Below, in pieces: positions 39,501-53,822 of a stretch of 64,000 nucleotides of DNA; position 1 is the first letter of the stretch, and every line of letters begins with the position of its first letter. This stretch comes from Lotus japonicus (Eukaryota > Streptophyta > Magnoliopsida > Fabales > Fabaceae). A program made the translations under genes and the position numbers. The stretch covers positions 75,192,732 to 75,256,731 of the forward strand of contig NC_080044.1 in the NCBI RefSeq assembly GCF_012489685.1, read 5' to 3'. The notes under the pieces are model-generated. The model was not told where the DNA came from. It made no database searches and saw only the letters and a list, made by a program, of their open reading frames with translations.

Positions 39501-42500
39501 GCTGCTATGGTGAAGCACGTTAGTCTAGTCTGTTTTCTTCGCTATAGTGGCTGCTTTCTGATCTGCCACTGTACCATTTTAAAGGGGTAGTTGCTTCATG
39601 CTGTCTTCTGGCGTTGCCTGCTTAATATGTGCGATGCAGACTTGTTCAGTAATTGTGAAATTAGTTATGTGGTTAGGATAGGAATGCATCTACTTGTAGG
39701 TGCACTAGAAGTAAGGGACTAAACAAAATACATATACCTATATGATTTATGAGAGTATAAATACAAGTTTTGGATCAGTCAATATTAGATAAACTGTTCA
39801 CGAACTTTTCAGATCAACCAATATATGTGTTCAATGCTTCGTGTTTGTGTGCATATGTGTAAGTGCATGCACCTATGTGTATTGAACTGTTGATAAGAAA
39901 TAGAATGTCAAAGAAGTTATTGTTGACCGCTTACTTGGTATTTTGTTGCGTTGTGATAAATATTTTCCTCACTTCTAATTGATTTTTGAAGGTATACGCA
40001 GTGGGGTGAAAGATTGCCTCATAGACCTGTTGAAGACCTTGCATTTGCTGTTGCACGTTTTTTCCAACGTGGAGGATGCTTACAAAATTATTATATGGTA
40101 TGATAGCTGATTAAATTTATTATTTGGACTGAAAATTCCTTTCTGGCTTCTTTATTGTGCTAAGCTAAAATATATTAGATTTTGTGGATGTTCAAAGTAT
40201 CTGCGACCTGCATCTTGATAAGCCTTTTTTATGTTACAGTATTTTGGCGGAACAAATTTTGGACGCACTGCTGGGGGACCTTTGCAAATTACAAGTTATG
40301 ATTACGATGCTCCAATTGATGAGTACGGTATGTAGAAGAATAACAATTATGTTGTTCAGATGGTAGCTATTTTTGGGATTCATATAACTATTGACATGGT
40401 TGAGGACGTTCAATTGATGAACCTTGTTTTTTAGGTCTGCTGAGTGAGCCGAAGTGGGGCCACTTGAAAGATTTACATGCTGTTATAAAACTTTGTGAGC
40501 CTGCTCTAGTGGCTGCTGATTCACCAACATATATAAAATTGGGTCCAAATCAGGAGGTTTGACCCAATCCTGAAAGTTATTTATAATCATTTAAATATCG
40601 CTAGTTATTGTATGAGAGATTTACAGGATGATAATTTTTTTCTCCCGAATTACTTCTGTAAATCAATTCCAGGCACACGTGTACCAAGCAGATGTTCACG
40701 CTAAAGGATTGAACTTATCTCTGTCTGAATCCTCTGGCATATGCTCAGCATTTCTTGCCAACATTGATGAGCGGAAAGCGGCAACTGTGACCTTCCGTGG
40801 TCAAAGATACACTATACCACCTTGGTCTGTGAGTGTGTTGCCAGATTGCAGAAATACAGCTTTCAATACTGCTAAGGTTGGTTTATGCAAGGGATATTTC
40901 TGGGGCTTCAAAAATTTGCATGACATCAATTTATTTCTGACCTATCTATATACTAGTTTATCTATTCGTAATCTATATAATATATACTGGCTCCGAAGCA
41001 TATCAAAATCAATCTTACATACATGACTGTGAGTACCTTTTTGTACAAAAGAAACCTAAAAAATATAACAGTCAAGTTCCAGCCATACAGTCCAAAGAGT
41101 ATAGCATTGCACATTGCCATAAAAGTTTAGCTTATTTAGTTCTAGGAAAACTATGGAAATAATAATAATAAAATGATTCAGCGATCTAGGACACCCTCAA
41201 CACACACCAAAATGCCAAATAAGGAATTCCTTAGAGAAGCTGCAGCAGAATAATATAAGTAGAGTTGATTAATTAATTCTGAGCTAATACCACATGTTAC
41301 AAACATAGCAAGGGAAAGAGCCTTATACAGACTACGAACCAACATGTCATGGCTGGACATCATGGTGAATAACAGAAAAGAGCCGGTTGACTTTGTTCAC
41401 CTACATACACCACTCAAAAACAGAAAGTCATTCGTGATTCCTGTATCTTCTCACTTATCAGCAATTTTAATAGGAACTGTAAAGAATGTTTGGATGTGTG
41501 TTAGAACCACACAACAGCACAAAACCTTAGGCTTAAGGCAATGGGTGTGTGTGTTCTTTATTATATATGCACTTGTGCACTTGCTAATCTTGGCAATGTG
41601 GGACTTCTTTGAGTCACCACTTTATTATCTCTATTACTCCCCCTCATTTGGGACTCCATTTTTTTTATTTTTTTTATTTTTTTGCCTGTGCCTTGCACTC
41701 CAGCGGGAACATCAGTGGTCGTCGGACTTGTGCTCCTTCGTCTGAGTTTGCCTTTTGACTTTCTTTGTCTGGGCTAGTACTCTAGCGGGAACATCGGAGT
41801 TCCTTGGACTTGTGCTCCTTCGTCTGAGTCTGAGGTCTTGGCTTGCGCAAATGGGACTGCCATTTTTGTGTTTTTTTTTTCGAATTTTTTTTCGTTTTTT
41901 TTTTTTTTTGGGAAGCGGAAGTCATGGCTTGGATCAGACCAGCTCTGATACCATGTTAAACTCTCTAAGATATGTAACTGAATTTCATTATTGAAAAGCT
42001 AAAGATTACAATGAGTGATCTCAGTATTTATAGAGAATACAAGGCTTGCTAAGCAAGCTACCAACTCTAACAGAATCAGTTATGTGACAGCTGTAATGAC
42101 AGCTCACATGACAGCTGTATTGACAGCTCATTCTAACAGAATGTAACTAACTCAAATATTAACTATACTACTAACAGTAACTAACTTCTTAATCAGAGTA
42201 ATGTGTACTCTACTCATAGAGATAATAAAGTGGTGACTCAAAGAAGTCCCACATTGCCAAGATTAGCAAGTGCACAAGTGCATATATAATAAAGAACACA
42301 CACACCCATTGCCTTAAGCCTAAGGTTTTGTGGTGTTGTGTGGTTCTAACATGGTATCAAGAGCGCTGAACGATCCTTGGGATCTTTCTCTCTGATTTTT
42401 CTCGCTTTTTCCTCTTCTTCTTCATCATCGCCATGGCTGATGACGCTTCTGCACCTGCAACTGCAGCTGCAACTCCAGTTCCGCTTGCGGTTGCTCAACC

Positions 42501-45500
42501 GCAACTGAGTTCTACTTCTCTAGTTCACAAGCTTATCCTGAAGCTTGATGATTCTAACTTCCTTTCATGGAAGCAGCACATTGAAGGCATCGTGCGTACG
42601 CACAGGTTGCAGAGCTTTCTTGCTCATCCAGAGATTCCACCTCGCTGGCTCAGTGAGGATGATCGCGTGAATGCAGTGGAAAATCCTGCATATCAGATCT
42701 GGGAACAACAAGATTCTGCACTGTTTACATGGCTTCTCTCGTCTCTTTCTCCATCAGTGCTTCCAACCGTGGTCAACTGCACTCAGTCTTGGCAGATTTG
42801 GGAAGCAGTGCTCGACTTCTTCCAAGCACAATCGCTTGCTCAATCCACGCAACTACGTTCCGAGTTGCGATCGATAACCAAGGGCTCGAAGACTTCATCG
42901 GAGTTTCTCAAGAGAATCAAGTCCATTGTGAACGCGCTTGTCTCCATCGGAGATCCAATTACCTATCGCGAGCACCTTGAGGCTATTTTCGACGGTCTTC
43001 CTGAGGATTACAGTCATCTCTTGACTGTAATCTACAATTGCGATGATCGCTGCTCGATCTCGCATGTTGAATCCATGGTTATCGCGCATGAAGCGCGCCT
43101 TGAGCGTTCTCGCACTCGTCAGATGAGTGCAAATCCTCCGTCAGCGCTTCTCGCTCAGGCTGCGCCACCGCCAACGCCTCCAGCGCCGCCATCGCCAGCG
43201 CCGACACCATCGTCGACTGTCTCTACACAGTCGACTGCATCCTCAGAAGCTAACTATGCTTCTAGTTCTGTCAACAACTCTTACGATGATCGATCTTATG
43301 ATAATCGTGGTGGATATGATGATTCTCGTTCTCGCGGTGGTTATGGTGGTAGATCTGGTGGTCGTAACTCTCGTGGTGGAAGAAACGGTAATCGTAGTGG
43401 TGTTCAATGCCAGATCTGTTACAAGTATGGACATGATGCTAGCATCTGCTATCATCGTGGTTCATCAGGATCCAGTGGCTCGTTTGGTATGCAATCTTCT
43501 GGTTATGGCATGCCTATGCCTATGCATCCAAAAATGCTCCCACACTTTGGATTCTCACCTTTCTATGGTGTTCCACAATTTGGAAATCCTACTCAGTTTG
43601 GTAATTCTCAGTTTGGACATCTTCCTGGCATGATGTTAGGCCAGTATCCTCAGAATTCAGGCATGAACATGAGCAACTTTGCTCAGTCCTTTGGTCATTC
43701 CCCTTATGGTGGTGCACAGTGGCATCCTACACCTGCACAATTTCCTGGTGGTAATCCTAGGCCTGCAAATCCTCCAGCCAGAGCTCCACAGGCTATGCTT
43801 ACTGGTCCTACTACTTCTCCTGCTGCAGCAAATCTCAGCTCCTGGTTTCCTGACTCTGGAGCAACACATCATGTTACCAATGATGCATCTGTGATTTCTG
43901 ATAGTGTCTCTCTCACTGGTACTGATCACATTCTAATGGGGAATGGACAAGGTTTGCCAATCCACTCTATTGGTTCAGCTTCTTTTCCTTCTCCTTATCA
44001 CAAAAATACTACACTCACTCTTAGTGATCTTCTTTTAGTTCCTAATATCACAAAGAATCTAGTCAGTGTTAGTAAATTTGCAAAGGATAATAATGTCTAT
44101 TTTGAGTTTCACTCATCCTATTGTGTTGTGAAATCTCAGGAAACTTCTAGAGTTCTCCTCAAGGGTACTGTTGGTCCAGATGGTCTATACATCTTTGAGG
44201 GGATGCATACTCCAACTTTTCCTCCAGCCAGTTCTGTTAAAGCTTCCTCAGTTCCAATTCCAGTTGCTGTTTCCTCTGTTAATACTGCTTCTTTACCTAT
44301 TTCTAATGTACCTAGTCCTACCTCTGATGTAACTACTACTTCTTATGCCTTGTGGCACAATAGGCTAGGTCATCCTCATCATGAGGCTTTGCATTCTGCT
44401 TTAACTGTTTGTAAGATACCAGTACCTAATAAAGCAAAGTTTTCAGTATGTTCAGCTTGTTGTTTGGCAAAGTCTCACAAATTACCTTCTTCTTCCTCTC
44501 ATACTGTTTATACTGCACCTCTAGAACTTGTCTTTGCTGATCTATGGGGTCCTGCCTCTACTGTTTCTTCATGTGGATATTCTTATTTTTTGACTTGTGT
44601 GGATGCTTATTCTAGGTTCACTTGGATTTTTCCCCTAAGACAAAAATCTGAAACCTATTCTGTTTTTCTTCAGTTTCAAGCCATGGTTGAATTAAAGTTT
44701 AGCTTGAAACTGAAATCTGTCCAAACAGATAATGGTACTGAGTTCAAACCTCTTACCCCTCATTTTACCAAACTTGGCATTGTCCATAGGCTCACTTGCC
44801 CCTACACACACCATCAAAATGGTAGTGTTGAAAGGAAGCATAGACATATCATAGAAACTGGTTTATCTTTGCTGGCTTATGCTAACATGCCATCCCAATA
44901 CTGGGATCATGCTTTCTTGGCTGCTGTTTTTCTAATTAATAGGCTTCCTACTGTGGTTTTGGGCAATGAGAGTCCTTATTCTAAGTTGTTTAAGACTCTC
45001 CCTGATTATAAGATTCTCAAAGTGTTTGGCTGTGCCTGTTACCCTCATTTAAGACCTTACACTCACAACAAGCTCTCCTTGAGGTCTAAGGAATGTGTGT
45101 TTATTGGATATTCTTCCTCTCATCAAGGGTACAAATGCATGGACAGTGATGGCAGAATTTTTATCTCTCGAGATGTGATTTTTGATGAAGTAAAGTTTCC
45201 TTATCCTGCCATGTTTACCTCCACTGACTCTGACCTCCCAGATAGTGGCATTCTTTCAACAATACCTATTGTTCCAGTTCCAGTTGCTGCTCAGCCTACA
45301 ACCTCCAATTCAGACTCTGATTTGTCTTCAGGACCTGTCTCTCTGGCTCAGGTTTCTGCACAAGAGCAAGTCCAAGCTTCTCCTGCAGCCTCAGGCACAA
45401 CTTCAGCACCCTCTTCTCCTGTTGGGCCTTCACCTCCAGTGGGCAGTATTCATCCTATGCAGACAAGAGCAAAATCTGGCATAATCATGCCCAGATTGCA

Positions 45501-48500
45501 TCCAACCTTGCTCCTCACTCAGGCAGAACCTACTACAGCCAAGCAAGCACTCAAAGACCCTAAGTGGTTGGCAGCCATGAAGGCTGAGTATAATGCATTA
45601 CTAGCTAATGATACCTGGACATTGGTTCCTCTACCCAAAGATCGGACACCAATAGGATGCAAATGGGTGTTTAGAGTGAAGGAGAATGCAGATGGTTCTA
45701 TCAATAGATATAAAGCAAGGCTTGTAGCCAAAGGTTATCATCAAGTGAAGGGTTTTGATTATTCTGAGACATTTTCCCCTGTGGTCAAACCTGTTACTAT
45801 TAGGCTCATTCTTTCTCTTGCAATCACTAAACAGTGGCATATTCATCAGCTTGATGTCAATAATGCCTTTCTCAATGGTGCACTTCAGGAGGAGGTGTAC
45901 ATGACACAACCTTCTGGATTTCAGAATGAGGATAAGACTCTTGTTTGCAAGTTGAACAAAGCTCTCTATGGCCTCAAACAGGCCCCTAGAGCTTGGTTTG
46001 AAAGGTTAAAGTCAGCTCTTGTGAAGTATGGCTTCAAACCTAGTAGATGTGACCCATCTTTGTTCACTTTCCACAATGCAACTTGCTGCATTTACATCCT
46101 AGTCTATGTAGATGATATCATCATTACAGGCAACTCTTTGCCTCTTGTGCAGAAAGTGGTTGAGAATCTCAATTCTGAGTTCTCTTTGAAGCAGCTAGGA
46201 CTGCTAGATTATTTCCTTGGTGTTCAGGTGCATCATCTTCAGGACAGGTCATTATTGTTGACCCAGACAAAGTACATTACTGATCTCCTTGAAAGAGCAG
46301 ATATGGGAGAAGCAAAGGGCATCTCTACTCCTATGGTTGGTGGTGCCAAATTGAGCAAATATGGAGCAGATTACTTTGCTGATCCTACCCTTTACAGATC
46401 CATTGTAGGAGCACTTCAATATGCCACCTTAACCAGACCTGAGATAAGCTTTGCTGTGAACAAAGTTTGTCAATTTCTAAGTCAGCCATTGGAAGATCAT
46501 TGGAAGGCTGTTAAGAGAATATTAAGGTATCTTAAGGGTACTCTTCATCATGGGCTGCATCTTAAGCCTTGTTCTCTTCATTCTCCTGTTTCTCTAGTGG
46601 CCTTTTGTGATGCTGATTGGGCATCAGATCCTGATGACAGAAGGTCAACATCAGGATCATGTGTTTTCTTTGGCCCTAATCTTGTGTCTTGGAGCTCCAA
46701 GAAGCAGACCTTAGTGGCTCGTTCCAGTACTGAAGCAGAATACAGAAGCCTAGCCAATACCTCTGCTGAGCTGCTATGGGTTCAGTCACTTTTGCAGGAG
46801 TTGCAGATTCCTTTTTCTCCTCCTACAATCTTTTGTGACAACATGGGTGCAGTGGCTTTGACCCATAATCCAGTTCTACACACCCGCACTAAACACATGG
46901 AGCTTGACATCTTCTTTGTGAGGGAAAAAGTTCTCAACAAGTCTCTTTTTGTGCATCACATTCCTTCAGTTGATCAACTGGCAGATCTCTTTACAAAGGC
47001 TCTTTCACCTCTTCGTTTTGAAACTCTTCGTGACAAACTCAATGTGATTGAGAAATCCATTTCTCACCCACCTTGAGTTTGAGGGGGCCTATTAGAGTAG
47101 AGTACACATTACTCTGATTAAGAAGTTAGTTGCTGTTAGTAGTATAGTTAATATTTGAGTTAGTTACATTCTGTTAGAATGAGCTGTCAATACAGCTGTC
47201 ATGTGAGCTGTCATTACAGCTGTCACATAACTGATTCTGTTAGAGTTGGTAGCTTGCTTAGCAAGCCTTGTATTCTCTATAAATACTGAGATCACTCATT
47301 GTAATCTTTAGCTTTTCAATAATGAAATTCAGTTACATATCTTAGAGAGTTTAACAATGTGTCTTTTGGAAGGATATGGGCTTATGGATTCTTTTATAGA
47401 ACTTGAATGAATCAAAATTCTTGATTTTTCAGCTAGAAGCTGCTTTTGTCCTCTTTTGTTGGATTCAGTTGCCCTTGTGTGTGTGTTTTTTTTGTCATTC
47501 CTGAATTTTTTAGCTGATGGTTTTTTTGGGGGGGGATCACCTTGATGAATTATAGAATGATTTGACAGCACCCTTGATTTAATAATTTTTTGTTTCACCT
47601 TTTTGTTTGGTAGTTCGCACTTTGCCTGTTAAAGAGAAGTCCTTGTTGTCTATTCTTTTTGCAAGGTGTACTAGTAAAAATGCCCATTGTTAGAAACAAA
47701 TGTTCATACTATCTTGGGGTTGTCTGAAACTTTTATCTCTAAATTTGGACAGGTTGGAGCACAAACTTCAATCAAACTGGTACAGTTTGATTTGCCACTT
47801 GTCTCTAATTTTTTCACAACCCAGCCATTGATGCACGACAATGGCATTTCCCACACCTCAAAGTCTTGGATGATTACAAAAGAGCCAATCAATATATGGA
47901 GCCAGAGCGGCTTCACTGCAGAAGGTATATGGGAGCACTTAAATGTAACAAAGGATCAATCTGACTATCTTTGGTATTCAACCAGGTAATATGATATGCT
48001 TTACAGAAGATATGATATGGCTTGTGTACTTTTAGTTTCTGATATAAATGGTATATATTATGGATGCTTTACTTTTATCAAAAGAAAAAAAAATACACGC
48101 TTTACTTGTGTAACAACAGTACCAAAATAGAAATTGGAAAAATTGATCTTTATTGTACGAAACAAGGTTTTCAGGTGTGACTCGTTTGTGAGGGAAACCT
48201 ATGAGACCAAAAGTGAAATAGGAAAGATTGATCTTTTTGAATGAAACAAGGTTTTCAGGTGTGAGTGCATCCTGAGACATACAAAATGACACGTCCAGAG
48301 ATATTCTAAGAGACCCTGGACTCTCCTAACTGCCTTACAATTCTATACCTAAGCCTCAAGTGTGTTACATTTCAATATACGAATAGCAGTCCCTATAACC
48401 ATGTGTTAGAAATTTAATATAAATCATTCATGTCTCTTCACACAACAACTTAAACTTTTGGTACAGTGGTCATACCTGAGCCTCTATAACCAAGTGGTTT

Positions 48501-53058: not shown

Positions 53059-53196
53059 AATGGGTCATCAACAAATAAAAAGTGGCCTTTAATTGTGTTC
53101 ATTGTTTGATTGTATATTATGGTACTATGCTAAATCTCATGATTTTGTAAATAATGCAAGGTCGTAAATAAACAATTTATTTTTATCAATATTTGT

Positions 53197-53817
53197 TAAT
53201 AGAGATAATGAAGTGGTAACTCAAAGAAGTCCCACATTGCCAAGATTAGCAAGTGCACAAGTGCATATATAATAAAGAACACACACACCCATTGCCTTAA
53301 GCCTAAGGTTTTGTGGTGTTGTGTAGTTCTAACTAAGGATTTCTAACATGGTATCAGAGCTGGTCTGATCCAAGCCATGACTTCCGCTTCAAAAAAAAAA
53401 AAAAAAACGAAAAAAAAAAGTAAAAAAAATCCGAAAAAAAAAAGAAGCAAAAATGGCAGTCCCATTTGCGCAAGCCAAGGCCTCAGACTCAGACGAAGGA
53501 GCACAAGTCCAAGGAACTCCGATGCTCCCGCTAGAGTACTAGCCCAGACAAAGAAAGTCGAAAGGCAGACTCAGACGAAGGAGCACAAGTCCGACGGCCA
53601 CTGATGTTCCCGCTGGAGTGCAAGGCACAGGCAAAAAAAAAAATGGAGTCCCAATTGAGGGGGAGTAATAGAGATAATGAAGTGGTAACTCAAAGAAGTC
53701 CCACATTGCCAAGATTAGCAAGTGCACAAGTGCATATATAATAAAGAACACACACACCCATTGCCTTAAGCCTAAGGTTTTGTGGTGTTGTGTAGTTCTA
53801 AATAAGGATTTCTAACA
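53197..53817 (+). mobile_element. Complete TRIM retrotransposon with TSD TTTGT
   Basis: Two 152-bp LTRs (53197-53348 and 53666-53817) differ at one base by eye. The PBS TGGTATCAGAGC follows the first LTR directly at 53349-53360, and a polypurine TTGAGGGGGAG precedes the second. The whole 621-bp element is flanked by TTTGT (53192-53196 and 53818-53822). There is no coding capacity; the internal region has A-rich tracts and an 82-bp tandem repeat. LTRs begin TAATAG rather than TG. It is the same family as the reversed half of the composite element, and sits just past the beta-galactosidase stop codon, possibly in its 3'UTR. Confidence 0.9.
53484..53635 (+). repeat. 82-bp tandem repeat inside the TRIM
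   Basis: Two units start with CAGACTCAGACGAAGGAGCA at 53484 and 53566 and both continue to a TGTTCCCGCT/TGCTCCCGCT block. The same duplication is seen in the reversed copy at about 41700-41860. Confidence 0.75.
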
Positions 53818-53822
53818 TTTGT

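Follow-up and report, generated by a model that had tools for sequence, protein, structure and literature searches.

An unusual composite retrotransposon lies in a 64,000-nt stretch of the Lotus japonicus genome (contig NC_080044.1, positions 75,192,732 to 75,256,731, forward strand), which is called the window here. The unit spans 5858 bp at window positions 41499-47356. It consists of two halves placed head to head: a terminal-repeat retrotransposon in miniature (TRIM) on the reverse strand and a Ty1/copia-type element on the forward strand. Both halves carry their native long terminal repeat (LTR) on the 3' side, while both 5' LTRs have been exchanged at the primer-binding site (PBS). One 5-bp target-site duplication (TSD), ATGTG, flanks the whole unit. 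We consider it likely that such units arise by plus-strand transfer between co-packaged elements, followed by a single integration through two U5 ends.

The window unit and its parent elements

A base-level check of the sequence gave the order ATGTG, A(rc)-TRIM(rc)-PBS(rc)-B(rc), A-PBS-gag-pol-PPT-B, ATGTG, where A and B are the two LTRs, rc marks the reverse complement and PPT is the polypurine tract (Table 1). This layout, including the swapped 5' LTRs, the single TSD and the loss of 5 and 2 bases from the U3 tips, had been given in a preliminary description of the window and was confirmed base for base. At the local base composition, the chance of a 5-bp match at two fixed places is about 0.0014.

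A domain search of the 1547-aa reading frame, conducted in three pieces, found Retrotran_gag_2, rve and RVT_2 in that order. The forward half thus has gag, then integrase upstream of reverse transcriptase, in one frame, as is characteristic of Ty1/copia elements. When one piece of pol was used for a homology search, legumes (Trifolium, Cajanus) supplied many of the top-ranking named relatives. The reverse half has the short LTRs, the short interior without gag-pol, the PBS, the PPT and the 5-bp TSD of a TRIM, and its internal region is 88% identical to that of a second TRIM in the window (53197-53817). Its PBS, TGGTATCAGAGC, is presumably of the initiator-tRNA type. Neither half has two LTRs of the same family. 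The forward half begins with LTR-A and ends with LTR-B, and the TRIM body has the foreign LTR-B at its 5' side and LTR-A at its 3' side.

LTR-A was assigned to the TRIM and LTR-B to the copia element because native A-TRIM-A and B-copia(-B) copies exist. The second TRIM in the window is of the first kind. A B-copia-B copy of about 4.5 kb with the TSD AATAC is present elsewhere in the genome, and two loci (L028 and L039) have the native junction, with LTR-B directly 5' of the same copia PBS. Among the 40 LTR-B candidates scored out of 210, there were at least 11 same-strand pairs spaced 4.95-5.37 kb apart, and the pair in the window unit was the only one in opposite orientation within 6 kb. A BLAST comparison of the two LTRs at E 1e-3 gave no match. 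The TRIM and the copia element share a 13-nt core, TAACATGGTATCA, at the LTR/PBS border.

Within the unit, the LTR-A copies differ at 1 of 136 sites and the LTR-B copies at 1 of 262 aligned sites (2/398 together), so the unit is probably young, judging from sequence divergence. Both LTR-A copies have a 14-nt loss near U5.

Table 1. Features of the composite unit and its surroundings, in window coordinates
Feature	Position	Strand	Remarks
Left TSD	41494-41498	.	ATGTG
LTR-A, native 3' LTR of TRIM half	41499-41636	-	U5 end is the outer left border
TRIM internal region	41637-41953	-	317 bp, without gag-pol; PPT by 41637, PBS up to 41953
PBS of TRIM half	41942-41953	-	TGGTATCAGAGC
LTR-B, foreign, in place of TRIM 5' LTR	41954-42215	-	U3 without first 5 bases (TATTA)
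U3-U3 junction	42205-42226	.	B tip to A tip, 0 inserted bases
LTR-A, foreign, in place of copia 5' LTR	42216-42351	+	U3 without first 2 bases (TA)
PBS of copia half	42352-42364	+	TGGTATCAAGAGC, as in native B-copia elements
gag-pol open reading frame	42433-47076	+	1547 aa, stop-free, Ty1/copia type
PPT of copia half	47078-47089	+	Directly 5' of the 3' LTR
LTR-B, native 3' LTR of copia half	47090-47356	+	U5 end is the outer right border
Right TSD	47357-47361	.	ATGTG
Native A-TRIM-A (parent-type control)	53197-53817	+	TSD TTTGT at 53192-53196 and 53818-53822
beta-galactosidase coding sequence, left flank	40628-41026	+	GHD domain
beta-galactosidase coding sequence, right flank	47687-47989	+	Matches a solved beta-galactosidase

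Fused units elsewhere in the genome

The genome was surveyed using all loci listed for LTR-A (43 rows; 40 of 326 candidates scored), which gave 27 loci besides the window. Counting the second window TRIM, there were 29 LTR-A units in 28 loci (Table 2). Composites made up 15 of the 29, in a sample that was seeded with the copies most like the window LTR-A and is biased, non-random and drawn from one genome. Matching TSDs flank all 15 composites; 14 are exact 5-bp matches, and L009 agrees at four of five positions. Since related fused units are repeated in the same genome, this suggests that they are a recurring by-product of retrotransposition, not a one-off accident. L025 (L025:4648-5047) is a 5'-truncated TRIM without a left LTR and has GAGGC on each side; its left border is ambiguous, and the tally lists it among the truncated copies.

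Table 2. LTR-A units in the survey; brackets give the TSD (head-to-head units) and the number of PBS-side swap junctions where there are any
Class	Number	Loci
Head-to-head	8	Window (ATGTG; 2), L009 (CTGCC/CTACC; 1), L012 (GTTAC; 1), L017 (CGCCA), L024 (AAAAT), L027 (CACCA), L030 (TGCAT; 1), L035 (CTCTT)
Head-to-tail or multi-LTR	6	L010 (2), L013, L026 (2), L028, L032, L033 (2)
LTR-A joined to gag fragment of another family	1	L029 (1)
Plain TRIM with TSD	9	L014, L015, L016, L020, L021, L023, L031, L034, window 53197
Plain TRIM without TSD	2	L019, L022
Solo or truncated, outside the composite count	3	L011 (solo LTR), L018, L025

LTR/PBS and PPT/LTR junctions were scanned in 23 of the 28 loci (all but L011, L017, L018, L024 and L025). 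An LTR counted as foreign when it did not resemble the LTR that follows the PPT, either of the same internal region or of a related one at another locus. PPT/LTR pairs were recognised by the LTR starts of the partner families found here, and others would escape this pattern. Foreign LTRs were found on the 5' side only, at 12 LTR/PBS junctions in eight loci, and every one of these junctions falls exactly where the LTR ends and the PBS starts. The 5' LTR of the TRIM was foreign in 6 of 23 cases and the 3' LTR in 0 of 25 (Fisher p = 0.008, with junctions within one locus not fully independent); the LTR behind the TRIM PPT was native in all 25. At both junctions of the window unit, the foreign LTR is on the 5' side and the change lies in the PBS homology, as plus-strand transfer would leave it. 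A genome-wide pattern search for an A-like LTR end followed by the copia-type PBS gave seven exact matches, all forward and none reverse. Four of these were surveyed hybrids (the window, L026, L029 and L033), and the other three (L041-L043) were other copia-type LTRs. Foreign LTRs at the PBS, and never behind the TRIM PPT, point to intermolecular transfer of plus-strand strong-stop DNA.

The second regularity concerns the outer borders. U5 is at both outer ends in all eight head-to-head units. With equal odds for either orientation, this would be expected 1 time in 256; the unguided count is 5/5 (1 in 32) because the far borders of L017, L024 and L035 were sought as U5 ends only, which favors the U5-outward count. 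The survey showed no unit bounded by U3 on both sides, tail-to-tail borders having been sought in L019 and L022 only. That search gave no candidate in L019 and three motif matches in L022, none with a recognised LTR start after it.

If halves of such units can pass for plain elements, a plain TRIM lacking a TSD is predicted to have another U5 border farther along, with the matching 5 bp after it. This held for three of the five such TRIMs examined, and these three are halves of head-to-head units. In L017, CGCCA was found at the LTR end of a copia family that is also seen in L033. In L024, AAAAT follows the last 70 nt of an LTR seen in L026 (70/70 identical). In L035, CTCTT lies where a second small element, in reverse orientation, has its U5 end. 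The outward position of U5 on both sides points to integration via the 3'-LTR ends of two cDNAs that were joined to each other at their opposite ends.

The internal structure of individual composites provides further detail. The truncated partner in four head-to-head units (L009, L017, L030 and L035) is shortened at its 5' side and keeps its PPT and 3' LTR, as incomplete minus strands would appear. In L009 and L012, one boundary of the TRIM half falls among the first ~10 nt of the PBS, the point at which a minus strand would stop before receiving its 5' LTR. L013 (L013:4419-5330; TSD ACTCG) reads A-TGGTAT/A-TGGTAT/A-PBS-TRIM-A, and the two extra LTR-A copies, with six PBS bases each, may be strong-stop DNA caught directly and joined end to end. 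L026 has the structure B''-TRIM-A-copia-B'', with outer LTRs identical at 318/318 positions, and L033 the structure A-gag(deleted)-E-TRIM-A. L029 (L029:4892-6130) starts with LTR-A, continues with a gag fragment of another copia family, and has the right end ...TTTCTAACA and the TSD TTATC. A second miniature family (LTR-D), with its own PBS and PPT, is placed head to head with LTR-A TRIMs at L012:4293-4537 and L035:4140-4560.

Proposed mechanism and its alternatives

In the mechanism that we propose, TRIM RNA (LTR-A) and Ty1/copia RNA (LTR-B) would be reverse transcribed in one particle, and plus-strand strong-stop DNA would be formed on each 3' LTR (A+PBS and B+PBS). Via the shared core, each strong-stop DNA would anneal to the minus strand of its partner element. 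This reciprocal jump would give two hybrids, B-TRIM-A and A-copia-B, and would not require a later flip. Normal reverse transcription makes both LTRs of one molecule identical. A jump of plus-strand strong-stop DNA is expected to leave two whole, different LTRs per molecule and to place the change precisely at the PBS. Serial jumps, in which the plus strand re-copies the tRNA and moves on, could lead to the arrangements in L033 and L026.

Both hybrids would then undergo a single integration, each by one U5 (3'-LTR) end, into one 5-bp staggered target. The U3 ends would be joined together with the loss of 5 (B) and 2 (A) bases, most simply after two-donor integration; an end-to-end template jump could also make this joint. 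The timing of synthesis may account for the outward U5 borders, as the U5 end of the 3' LTR would be complete before the 5' LTR end and would pair with another U5 end, and joining of the remaining ends would leave the inner joints. One suggestion of the preliminary description, that two co-packaged cDNAs were joined U3 to U3 and integrated as one unit, agrees with the single TSD, the U5 borders and the seven additional head-to-head units, with co-packaging itself presumed. Window-type hybrids are probably replication dead ends, since a transcript would start with the R region of one family and end with that of the other.

Several observations weigh against this mechanism. The hybrid cDNAs and the particles are deduced from genomic sequence, and end joining before integration would give the same sequence as two-donor integration. 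L009:5401-5402 is an exact joint of LTR-A U5 to LTR-B' U3 with 0 extra bases, like the joint of a two-LTR circle, and plus-strand transfer alone does not predict it. The gag fragments of L033 (with an internal deletion before its LTR) and L029 (with no recognised LTR before the right border) keep their 5' side, which means that incomplete minus strands do not account for all truncations. In L018 the TRIM is truncated at the 3' side, and L019 and L022 were left without a TSD or a partner after the border search. The seeded sampling and the U5-only border searches noted above also count here.

Two potential marks of the window unit were dropped. The LTR-A family is very uniform, often with 0-2 differences, and copies across loci are often identical over the aligned part; LTR identity alone is therefore no proof of one replication cycle. 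The 14-nt U5-side loss was considered as a private mark of the unit and is also present in the 5' LTR of L024.

The strongest alternative involves the same hybrids, with the cDNAs joined at U3 before integration, by end joining or a template jump, and a linear dimer with two U5 ends then integrating. The product would be identical, and retroelement cDNA ends are well known to undergo end joining. For this order of events, the eight of eight U5-outward units require that U5-U5 dimers be rare or integration-incompetent. We regard it as possible, with some doubt.

Another explanation is that RNA templates were switched at the R regions, or that an already existing composite locus gave read-through RNA that was then reverse transcribed. 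For complexes with three LTRs, switching in R is the model that has been published (PMC1950507), and LTR recombination in ONSEN maps mostly to the first template switch in the accessible portion of that report (PMC5668417). Each half of the window unit has two unlike LTRs, though regular reverse transcription equalises LTRs, and the scanned swaps fall at the PBS. No shared R is evident for A and B either, since they lack a BLAST match. We find this explanation unlikely.

The preliminary description had also raised a flip of the LTR pair. A-TRIM-A and B-copia-B would have been joined U3 to U3 in native order, and the inner LTR pair later inverted between the inverted PBSs. The inner pair is indeed flanked by LTR/PBS borders in inverted orientation that are identical over 13 bp, and its inversion would yield the observed order. 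Chromosomal recombination, though, would have little to work on in 13 bp. The flip has no LTR pair between inverted PBSs to act on where the PBS-side replacement is in a head-to-tail unit (L010, L026 and L033) or is a single swap (L009, L012, L029 and L030), and the same swap occurs in all seven. The flip is thus unneeded, and we judge it quite improbable. The related proposal, that an LTR-B element was inverted after TRIM sequence had entered it, found no support.

Most published complex elements have been explained as adjacent insertions that were later rearranged (PMC1950507). Two neighboring, independent insertions followed by deletion or inversion are nevertheless a very improbable source of the window unit, given the matching outer TSDs in 15/15 composites, the 0 host bases between its halves and LTR pairs that differ at only 2/398 sites. 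An assembly error, to which inverted-order repeats are prone, is hardly credible in view of the exact TSD, the seven other head-to-head units with other partners and TSDs elsewhere in the assembly, and an assembly of 553.7 Mb in 65 contigs.

Setting, published relatives and implications

The window unit probably sits in an intron of a beta-galactosidase gene, because coding stretches for this enzyme are present on both sides of it and on the same strand (Table 1).

Du et al., in 2010, are said to have described LTR swapping between autonomous and nonautonomous elements in soybean, which founds new families with matching LTRs. As in that case, the window unit shows LTR exchange between partner elements; unlike there, the two LTRs of each half are different.

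Single-TSD composites, TRIMs in tandem, one inverted pair of TRIMs within a single TSD and recombination during strand transfer are all known, as far as the accessible text of these reports goes (PMC1950507, PMC4717578, PMC11899658, PMC7215508, PMC5668417, PMC12786077). Complex insertions produced by template switching were reported by Sabot and Schulman (2007; PMC1950507), who proposed co-packaging and abnormal strand transfer. Like those complexes, the window unit has two elements in one unit with a single 5-bp TSD (ATGTG/ATGTG). In the published complexes, two related cores share an internal LTR, and the outermost of the three LTRs are highly similar. In contrast, the window unit is head to head and has four LTRs of unrelated kinds, with A and B outermost, and an exchange at the PBS instead of R. 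L010, L026, L032 and L033 resemble the published class more closely.

Tandemly arrayed TRIMs, including one inverted pair with the TSD CTTCA in maize, were described by Gao et al. (2016; PMC4717578). These are also TRIM multimers within a single TSD, one of them inverted. In the available portion of that paper, the arrays belong to one TRIM subfamily, and no LTR swap, autonomous partner or mechanism for the inverted pair is described; one half of the window unit, on the other hand, is an autonomous-type copia element. Tandem LTR retrotransposons of rice and other plants are likewise flanked by a TSD (PMC11899658). They consist of alternating LTRs and internal regions, and their origin, by recombination or by insertion of a preformed tandem, is left open in the accessible part of that study. 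Recombination at strand transfer is shared with ONSEN bursts, where, in the text available, it occurs within one family, mostly in R and at the first template switch (PMC5668417). Whether LTR swapping and composites are caused by chromosomal recombination or by reverse transcription is argued in the accessible sections of this literature (PMC1950507, PMC11899658).

According to the preliminary description, no standard element has this layout. This is too broad as regards one-TSD units, since complexes with three LTRs (PMC1950507) and an inverted TRIM pair (PMC4717578) have been published. For the heterologous form, a search of the open-access literature gave no reciprocal head-to-head unit of this kind, no PBS-side rule and no U5-outward rule among the matches listed or in the accessible text.

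More broadly, plus-strand transfer between unrelated co-packaged retrotransposons could be routine in this plant. Its integrase would then regularly take the U5 ends of two cDNAs, head-to-head insertion would thus rescue unfinished cDNAs, and two-donor events would account for much of one TRIM family's insertions. We advance this wider view tentatively, as an open possibility. Integration by the ends of two cDNAs has been known mostly from retroviral experiments in vitro. Taken together, the two rules on the PBS side and on outward U5 borders are a simple test for any long-read plant genome. Genomic fossils of this kind would record co-packaging by showing which TRIMs occur in one particle with which autonomous elements, and they would also record integration by the ends of two cDNAs.

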